This document shows positions 15,378-17,594 of a stretch of 64,000 nt of DNA, piece after piece. Below the pieces are notes generated by a model. That model searched no databases, was not told where the DNA came from, and saw nothing but the letters and a program-made list of their open reading frames with translations. Origin of the DNA: Actinacidiphila paucisporea (GTDB taxonomy: Bacteria > Actinomycetota > Actinomycetes > Streptomycetales > Streptomycetaceae); contig NZ_FRBI01000006.1 in NCBI RefSeq assembly GCF_900142575.1, positions 180,418-244,417 on the forward strand, read 5' to 3'. Each line of letters begins with the position of its first letter. Within the stretch, counting starts at the first letter, position 1. The position numbers and the translations under genes are program-made.

Positions 15378-16010
15378 ATGACGACCCATGCGCAGCGTGA
15401 ACGTCTGCTTCTCGCCGACCTGCTGGAGAGCGCGGGGCCCGAAGCGCCGACCCTCTGCGAGGGTTGGACCGCCCGGGACCTCGCCGCGCACGTCGTGGTG
15501 CGCGAGCGCCGCGGGGACGCCGCCGCCGGGCTCATCGTCCCGCAGCTCGCGGCCCGGCTCGAACGCGTGCGCGGCGAGTATGCGCGGCGGCCGTACGAGG
15601 AGCTGATCCAGCTGATCAGGACCGGGCCGCCGCGGCTGTCGCCGTTCGCGCTCAAGCAGCTCGACGAGGCGTCCAACACGGTGGAGTTCTACGTCCACGC
15701 CGAGGACGTGCGTCGGGCGCAACCCGACTGGGCGCCGCGCGAGATCGACCCGGTCTTCGCCGACGCGCTGTGGTCCCGGCTCGAACGCGTCGCGCGCGTC
15801 ACGGGCCGGCGCTCGCCTGTCGGCCTCGTGCTGCGCCGGCCCGACGGCCAGACGGTGGTGGCCCACCGCGGCTCCCCCGTCGTGACGGTCACCGGCTCCC
15901 CCGCCGAGCTCACCCTCTTCGCCTTCGGCCGCCAGGACGCCGCCGACGTCGTCGCCGAAGGCGACAAGGCGGCCGTGGGCGCAGCCCACGCCGCCAAGCT
16001 CGGGCTGTAA
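15378..16010 (+). CDS. TIGR03085 family protein (maleylpyruvate isomerase/DinB-like fold)
   Basis: The 210-residue protein starts MTTHAQRERLLLADLLESAG and contains LCEGWTARDLAAHVVVRERR and NTVEFYVHAEDVRRAQP. These place it in the actinobacterial TIGR03085 group, whose four-helix bundle resembles mycothiol-dependent metalloenzymes; His residues at about 38 and 107 are candidate metal ligands. The reaction is unknown. A TAACCT -10-like element sits just before the ATG, so the mRNA may be nearly leaderless. Confidence 0.85.
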   Translation: MTTHAQRERLLLADLLESAGPEAPTLCEGWTARDLAAHVVVRERRGDAAAGLIVPQLAARLERVRGEYARRPYEELIQLIRTGPPRLSPFALKQLDEASNTVEFYVHAEDVRRAQPDWAPREIDPVFADALWSRLERVARVTGRRSPVGLVLRRPDGQTVVAHRGSPVVTVTGSPAELTLFAFGRQDAADVVAEGDKAAVGAAHAAKLGL

Positions 16011-16059
16011 GCCGCCCGTTCCCCCTTCCCGCCTGCCGCGGGGGCCCGTTCTGTTGCGT

Positions 16060-16182
16060 GCACAGTGCCGGTGCGGTGTGGCTGGGGCGCAGTTCTCCCC
16101 CAGAGCAACGCCTGGGGGTACCCCCACGCGCCCCTGAGGTGGCAGCCCCGGTCTGTCGCCGGCACAGTGCCGGTCCGTCGTG
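16060..16182. repeat. Degenerate Streptomyces-type intergenic repeat
   Basis: GCACAGTGCCGGT occurs at 16060-16072 and again at 16162-16174, each followed by a similar CG.GTGGCT string. Between them lies a variant of the GCGCAGTTC...GCGCCCCTGA core also present at 27.9-28.2 kb, here split by a C-rich stretch. With the adjacent MITE-like element this fills the 339-base gap; no gene is visible in it. Confidence 0.6.
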
Positions 16183-16183
16183 G

Positions 16184-16353
16184 CTAAGGGCTGTCCCGTA
16201 ATCCGCGGCGGGCGCGCGACGACAGCTACGGCACCTCGCTGCGTTGTCGGGCTCGTCCGAATACGACCCGGTATGAGGGCGACCCTTCGCCTTGCGATGC
16301 ACCGCATCTGACGCCGCGCGCTGGTCCACCGCGGATTACGGGACAGCCCTTAG
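16184..16353. mobile_element. MITE-like element with 25-bp perfect terminal inverted repeats
   Basis: The arms at 16184-16208 and 16329-16353 are perfect inverted repeats whose inner sequence begins AGGGCTGTCCCGTAA. The 170-base element encodes no protein. A TA at each edge fits target-site duplication of TA. Its right end overlaps the TAA of the MFS gene. It looks like a non-autonomous derivative of a DDE-type insertion sequence; no cognate transposase is in the window. Confidence 0.75.
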
Positions 16354-17594
16354 GAGGGGAGTTCCGCGGAGCGGAGGTGGGGGAGGAAGGCGGTGAAGGT
16401 GCCGCCCAGGGCGGCGAGGGTGGCGCTGGTGAGGAAGACGTGGGGGGCGCCGAAGGTGCCGGTCGCGGCGGCGAAGAGGGGGTAGGCCAGGGGGGCCAGG
16501 CCGAAGCTGGTGAGGCTCATGACGGAGGTGACGCGGCCGAGGTACGCGGCGTCCGTGGCCGTCTGGATGAGGGCCGCGGCCAGCCCGCCGCAGATGCCGC
16601 AGACCAGGCCGGCCACGAAGGCGACGGCGACCGCGGCGGTCAGGACGGGGGCGACGCCGATGGTGCCGACGGCCGCGGCCCCCACGAAGACCGCGGCTAT
16701 CTGCACGGCGCCGGCCCGGCGCACCCGGCCGCGTACGGCGAGCAGCAGCGCGCTGGCCGCGGCCCCGGCGCCGAACGCCGCGATGATCCAGCCATATCCC
16801 GCGGCGCCCCATCCGCGTTCCTGCGCGAGGAGCACCATGCCGACGTTGAGCGGCCCGACGAGGCCGAGTTCGCAGAGCGCGCCGGACAGGACCAGGGGGC
16901 CGACCACCCGGTGGCGGCGGATGTAGCGCAGCCCGTCGCGCAGCTCCCGGGCGGCCGGCGCCCGGGTGCCCGGCGCGGTGGTGGGCAGCGGGGTGATGCG
17001 GGTGCCGAGCAGCAGCGGGACGGACGTGGCGAAGAGCAGGCCGGCGACCGCGAAGGCGGCGGACGCCCCGCCGAGGCCCATCGCGAGGCCGCCGACCGGG
17101 GGCCCCACGACCGTGCCGAGCCGTACGGTCAGCGCGCGCAGGCCCTGCAGGCGTGCCAGTTGGTCGGGTGTGGTGATCCGGGGCGGCAGCGCCCCGACCG
17201 CGGGCATGAACAGCGCGTCGACGGCGCCGAAGACCAGCGCGACGGCGACCAGCAGCCACAGTCCGGGCGTCGCCAGCGCGAGCGCCGCGGCGGCGGCGAC
17301 GATCAGGGCGCAGCGGACGGCGTCGCTGCCGATGACGACCAGGCGCGGGCCGAAGCGGTCGGCGATCACTCCTCCGCCGAGCATGAGGACGGCCCTCGGC
17401 ACCGCGCCCGCGGCCATGACGAGGCCGACCTGCGCGGGCGCCGCGACCTTGGCGGCGGCGAAGCCGAGGGCGACGAAGTAGACGGAGTCGCCGAGGAGGG
17501 ACGCGGTGTAGGCGGTGAGCCAGCGCAGGACGTTGCCGTCGCGGTACGCGGGCCGTGCGGTGGAGCCGGTGGCGGTTGTCACGGTCGCCGTCAT
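16350..17594 (-). CDS. MFS transporter (drug/siderophore exporter-like)
   Basis: The 414-residue protein has about 12 membrane helices and the MFS loop GGGVIADRFGPR after the second pair of helices. Its overall look fits the MefA/EntS-type subgroup that exports drugs or siderophores. The ATG at 17594 follows GAGGA by six bases and lies 14 bases after the stop of an ArsR-type regulator, so the pair is probably co-transcribed and controlled by it. Its TAA stop comes from the terminal repeat of the MITE-like element. The substrate is unknown. Confidence 0.88.
   Translation of the reverse strand: MTATVTTATGSTARPAYRDGNVLRWLTAYTASLLGDSVYFVALGFAAAKVAAPAQVGLVMAAGAVPRAVLMLGGGVIADRFGPRLVVIGSDAVRCALIVAAAAALALATPGLWLLVAVALVFGAVDALFMPAVGALPPRITTPDQLARLQGLRALTVRLGTVVGPPVGGLAMGLGGASAAFAVAGLLFATSVPLLLGTRITPLPTTAPGTRAPAARELRDGLRYIRRHRVVGPLVLSGALCELGLVGPLNVGMVLLAQERGWGAAGYGWIIAAFGAGAAASALLLAVRGRVRRAGAVQIAAVFVGAAAVGTIGVAPVLTAAVAVAFVAGLVCGICGGLAAALIQTATDAAYLGRVTSVMSLTSFGLAPLAYPLFAAATGTFGAPHVFLTSATLAALGGTFTAFLPHLRSAELPS

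Follow-up and report, generated by a model that had tools for sequence, protein, structure and literature searches.

Two convergent genes meet in the part of the window considered here, the window being the whole stretch of 64,000 nucleotides that was analysed: a gene for an MFS transporter on the minus strand (16350-17594; PF07690 MFS_1, E 3.5e-31) and, on the plus strand, a gene for a protein with an MDMPI_N domain (15378-16010), whose own TAA stop lies 173 bp ahead of an element placed between them. From the sequence and an inverted-repeat search, this element is a palindrome of 170 bp at 16184-16353, the coordinates first noted for it. Its arms (16184-16218 and 16319-16353) are 89% complementary across the outer 35 nucleotides, and the 170 bp align with their own reverse complement at 70% identity. 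When the palindrome was folded as RNA, it reached -121.9 kcal/mol against a mean of -71.8 for shuffled sequences (z = -12.1), and none of the 200 shuffles was equally stable.

The body of the element, AGGGCTGTCCCGTAATCC...GGATTACGGGACAGCCCT, is palindromic, has no transposase gene and occupies 16187-16350, on the assumption that the TA beside it is a duplicated dinucleotide. To the left lies one copy of the duplicated TA of a CTAG target (16185-16186), a layout that is identical in an exact filled and empty plasmid pair. To the right, the second TA (16351-16352) forms, together with base 16350, the TAA stop of the MFS gene on the minus strand. The MFS reading frame ends there (last base 16350) as ...CTC CCC TCC TAA GGG CTG, so that the stop consists of the flanking TA and the terminal base of the element, while the TA pair itself sits inside C...G. 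An earlier, sequence-only reading of this DNA had stated that the end of the element carries the TAA closing the MFS gene, which is correct, and that joining the flanks over one TA yields TCC TAG, which we also find in the sequence.

The element is a MITE: it is short, has terminal inverted repeats, is present in multiple copies, is too short for a transposase gene and shares its ends with an autonomous element, described below. In its own genome (G000), 25 stretches match it, some of them as second matches to the same place. Three copies of the window family were used from this genome (the window copy, one at 89% and one at 71% identity), two further copies are degenerate over nearly their full length (75% and 72%), and the remaining matches, limited to the core, are to a sister family. 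Among the matches listed, full-length or core matches were present in 29 of the 35 genomes of the genus that were searched, its own included, and 51 records of Streptomyces plasmids match the element, in 31 of which a single place contains 80% or more of it. We read 67 near-full-length copies of the window family in nine genomes, again among the matches listed; this set omits partial copies, the degenerate own-genome copies L004 and L010, and the duplicate L177. The element represents a MITE family that is new, though of a familiar kind, and that inserts in a stop-preserving manner.

Several further insertions were observed in the course of this survey. In G016 the MFS orthologue has a copy of the same family (L023, G016:C46:22294-22463) about 640 bp downstream, apparently as an independent insertion. 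One intergenic spot upstream of one gene is occupied by different element families in G000 (L136), G027 (L167) and G011 (L188), and G005 has a sister-type element (L310) near the stop at which G027 has a copy of the window family (L164). At L320 (G000:C37:107130-107650), CTGGGTCCTGTCCGACAGGTCCCTAG, a palindrome of 26 bp, has the appearance of two fused element ends; G027 has a window-family copy there.

The sister family of the own genome has CTAGGGCCTGTCCGGCGGATC ends and copies of 169 or 196 bp, the longer ones bearing a 27-bp insert that contains CCCCTGCCTTCGGCGGGAGGTG. Its 16 counted copies, with CTAG ends, are L005-L009, L011, L012, L014-L019, L129, L134 and L215; single ends and L013, which has a damaged right end, are left out. 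The two families share their architecture and the CTAG target, and their palindromic cores are 75-81% alike over the matched part. They differ in the first base after the TA, which is G in the sister family and rebuilds TAG, whereas the window family rebuilds TAA. The sister ends also resemble those of IS5 elements of the DUF4096 type, which are present in the genus; as a partner of the window family, these elements were rejected on account of their CTAGG... ends, which resemble the sister family instead.

A candidate partner with matching ends was found in G011, which contains four copies of an 884-bp IS (counted from CTA to TAG) with the ends CTAAGGGCCGTCCCGTAA and CTAAGGGTTGTCCCGTAA. Its transposase matches PF01609, HTH_Tnp_4 and PF13359; with IS5-family models it passes the Pfam cut-off and falls short of the one set by NCBIfam. 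A product annotated as "IS5-like element IS112 family transposase" shares 91% identity with it. The IS112-annotated copy and the four G011 copies share the ends CTAAGGGCYGTCCCGTAA / CTAAGGGTTGTCCCGYAA. IS112 is an IS5-family element of Streptomyces albus G; PMC3937824 describes it as having interrupted the SalI restriction gene of S. albus. In the annotated copy its ends read CTAAGGGCTGTCCCGTAA / CTAAGGGTTGTCCCGCAA, practically the same as those of the MITE. The resemblance does not extend beyond the ends: the window element is 170 bp long and without transposase, and it gave no match when the 884-bp IS was used as query. In the 78-contig assembly of the own genome, only broken fragments of an IS112-like transposase were found; single ends such as L147, tried as an autonomous element, were rejected because they look like fragments. 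Judging from the shared ends, an IS112-type transposase most probably moves the MITE.

Transposases of the IS630/Tc1 type also duplicate TA. Mobilisation by such an enzyme would agree with a TA duplicated at CTAG, and an IS630-family fragment adjoins one plasmid copy of the element. Since the terminal repeats match those of IS112, an IS5-family element, almost letter for letter, and since the other flank of that plasmid copy has no match to the IS630 records listed, so that the contact looks accidental, we consider an IS630-type mobilisation highly improbable and retain IS112 as the probable source of the transposase.

The target was read from two exact empty sites. For a plasmid copy of the window family, the empty site GCACCCACTAGAAAAGCC corresponds to the filled site GCACCCACTA-AGGG...CCCT-TAGAAAAGCC, that is, CTAG became CTA-[element]-TAG. 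For the sister copy L007, an exact empty site, CACTAGCCCCTGG, is present in G027 and obeys the same rule. The TA duplication at CTAG was thus seen in one pair of the window family and one pair of the sister family, with none exact for the window copy. No empty site came from four other plasmid copies: among the best 12 matches of each, only its own record covered at least 80% of the query. The same sequence would result whether TA was duplicated or the element, longer by one base on each side, went in between the T and the A; either may apply.

A TNA target duplication is known for the IS1031 group. As a direct repeat it was rejected here, the left and right ends being TAA/TTA or TGA/TCA and not an identical triplet, and inspection of the flanks by eye gave no consistent direct repeat beyond CTA...TAG. 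Separately, the AGGG anchor is much more constant among the ends of window-family copies than the two bases outside it, which vary (CTA, CTG, CTC, CCA), and in seven copies both third bases are G or C, with the two ends complementary, which a simple TA duplication does not explain. IS5 of E. coli, according to PMC5493358, inserts into Py-T-A-Pu, mostly CTAG, a word that is under-represented in bacterial genomes. IS5 and the window element thus share the CTAG preference, whereas IS5 duplicates four bases (PMC5493358) and the window family is consistent with TA only.

From these data we propose, with good confidence, that a non-autonomous MITE of the IS5 family, probably moved by IS112, inserted into a CTAG at the stop of the MFS gene and restored that stop as TAA. 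The last three letters of the target would have been the MFS stop (xxC TAG), and insertion would have turned it into CTA-[AGGG...CCCT]-TAG; the new stop would be TA plus the first base of the element, A, leaving the protein unchanged. A TAG stop before insertion is what the target specificity suggests. Several observations weigh against this proposal: the TGA stops of the near MFS orthologues, the sister and window-family sites whose relatives have a TGA or a TAG with no C ahead of it, the variable bases outside AGGG, the broken state of the IS112-like fragments in the own genome, and an enrichment of window-family copies at stops that falls short of significance.

The orthologues of the MFS gene were compared on this point. 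TGA closes each of the nine most similar ones (73-90% identity); their frames differ by -1 to +2 codons in seven and are 23 and 29 codons longer in two. Their ends read ...CCC ACC TGA (G024) and ...CTC CCC TGA (G004, G005), and in G027, the nearest relative (92% identical at the MFS locus), the TGA lies two codons later. More distant orthologues include TAG and TAA stops. A second collection of 45 loci included 35 that could be used (in the other 10 the C-terminus was not reached or the frame ran on), and these gave 29 TGA, four TAG and two TAA, four of the 35 coming from the same genomes as the first set; the four that end in TAG are only 57-63% identical. The intergenic DNA beside the MFS gene does not align with that of the relatives.

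These comparisons bear on the possibility that the insertion struck a TGA or another end that was not CTAG, and that the TAA arose by slight truncation or extension of the frame. The nearest orthologues, with a TGA at or within two codons of this position, speak for such a course, as does the sister copy L019, where both orthologues compared have TGA. Against it, the flanks of the window copy join to an exact CTAG, both exact empty sites are CTAG, and in G027 a TAG stands at 12 of the 13 sister sites. We therefore regard a non-CTAG origin as rather unlikely and a pre-insertion TAG in the MFS gene as the better reading.

At 13 stop sites that carry a sister copy in the own genome, G027 has no element and a TAG at the same codon in 12, and a TGA in one; six of the 12 TAGs are preceded by C, completing CTAG, and six by another base. 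TAG accounts for 60 of 257 gene-like stops in G027. Further comparisons gave TGA in three of four sites and TAG in one of four in G005, and in G024 a TAG at one site, a TGA at the same codon at another, and at a third a TGA three codons later. Nine sites of window-family copies in G027 were also compared with relatives. At L169, G000 and G004 have GAC TAG without the element and G027 has GAC TGA GGG; at L168, G000 has CGC TAG without the element, and G004 and G005 have CGC TGA. The TAG of G000 is preceded by G at L170 and lies one codon later, with no preceding C, at L164; L160 has TGA in all three relatives compared, and the other sites are ambiguous or bear other elements or remnants in the relatives. 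The sequence-only reading had held that an ancestral TAG was probably exchanged for TAA with no change to the protein. As a general course of events this is supported by the sister sites, L168 and L169, while at the MFS locus itself the TAG was not confirmed: the nine most similar orthologues have TGA, and the frame is longer by 23 or 29 codons in two of them. The comparison of relatives proposed as a check therefore neither bears the reading out nor clearly contradicts it, no near relative that lacks the element having TAG.

Why stop codons recur as insertion sites was approached through the background of CTAG in two genomes, G027 and G000, skipping sites at most 400 bp from the ends of stretches. 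In 400 kb of each, 60 (G027) and 68 (G000) CTAG sites were counted where base composition predicts about 1,000, a depletion of about 15-fold; some of those counted are apparent element ends (1 of 60 and 6 of 68). Genes were called with a codon log-odds score learned from 104 long G027 ORFs; the threshold, 15 bits across 60 codons, was arbitrary. By this measure 21 of the 60 and 16 of the 68 sampled CTAGs, or 24-35%, fall at gene stops, and only two (G027) and one (G000) lie inside genes. Stop codons are frequent landing sites because few CTAGs are left in these genomes and gene stops make up a quarter to a third of them.

In the nine genomes, 28 of the 67 window-family copies sit on stop codons (26 on one gene, two on two). 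This is not a significant enrichment over the CTAG sites of both background genomes taken together, 37 of 128 of which are at stops (p = 0.08), nor is it in G027 alone, where 9 of 15 copies are at stops against 21 of 60 background sites (p = 0.09). The sister copies of the own genome are at stops in 13 of 16 cases against 16 of 68 in the CTAG background (p = 3e-5), an excess that either the loss of insertions elsewhere by selection or additional targeting could explain.

Among the window-family ends that face a gene in frame, 29 of 30 contain a stop codon (21 TAA, six TGA and two TAG, the exception being TCA), compared with 68 of 104 other ends (Fisher p = 0.0004); when only ends in register are counted, the figures are 25 of 26 and 66 of 100 (p = 0.001). 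Because gene-facing ends retain stops far more than the others do, the end of the element really serves as a stop. Insertions at stops would survive because the end supplies TAA in the window family or TAG in the sister family. The insertion had been called near-neutral, which fits these results, and target choice plus tolerance explains most of the recurrence at stop codons. Such stop-codon insertion was not described in the titles and abstract openings of the matches listed in a literature search, whose scope mostly excluded subscription papers, nor in the parts of PMC3119063 and PMC9208149 consulted.

The palindrome could also be a host 3'-end element, a bidirectional terminator or mRNA-stabilising stem-loop selected after stops, and not a neutral passenger. 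The very strong hairpin (z = -12), the position between convergent genes, the over-representation of sister copies at stops and the presence of different elements at the same intergenic spot in different species are all in keeping with such a role. A simple scan of 15900-16700, with loops limited to 3-8 bases, gave no stem-loop with a T-run and no terminator-like site, and five Rfam matches in the same interval were all far below the gathering score. Many of the orthologous sites compared are without the element, and the stop bias may come from loss of insertions elsewhere as well. On balance a selected host element appears unlikely, and we return to the reading of a MITE tolerated at a gene stop.

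Taken further, and more tentatively than the insertion itself, IS5-type MITEs of streptomycetes might be regarded as stop-codon elements: avoidance of CTAG would make gene stops their main safe sites, the terminal base would guarantee an in-frame stop at either end, and the hairpin would become the 3' end of the transcript, so that gene ends are rewritten and proteins stay untouched. We hold this wider view with less than even confidence. The case illustrates how a rare target word and the right terminal base let a mobile element occupy gene ends harmlessly, and it gives a prediction of where in high-GC genomes elements of this sort should build up. Loci at which the element is present or absent at the same stop would also provide natural pairs for testing the effects of a 3' hairpin on expression.
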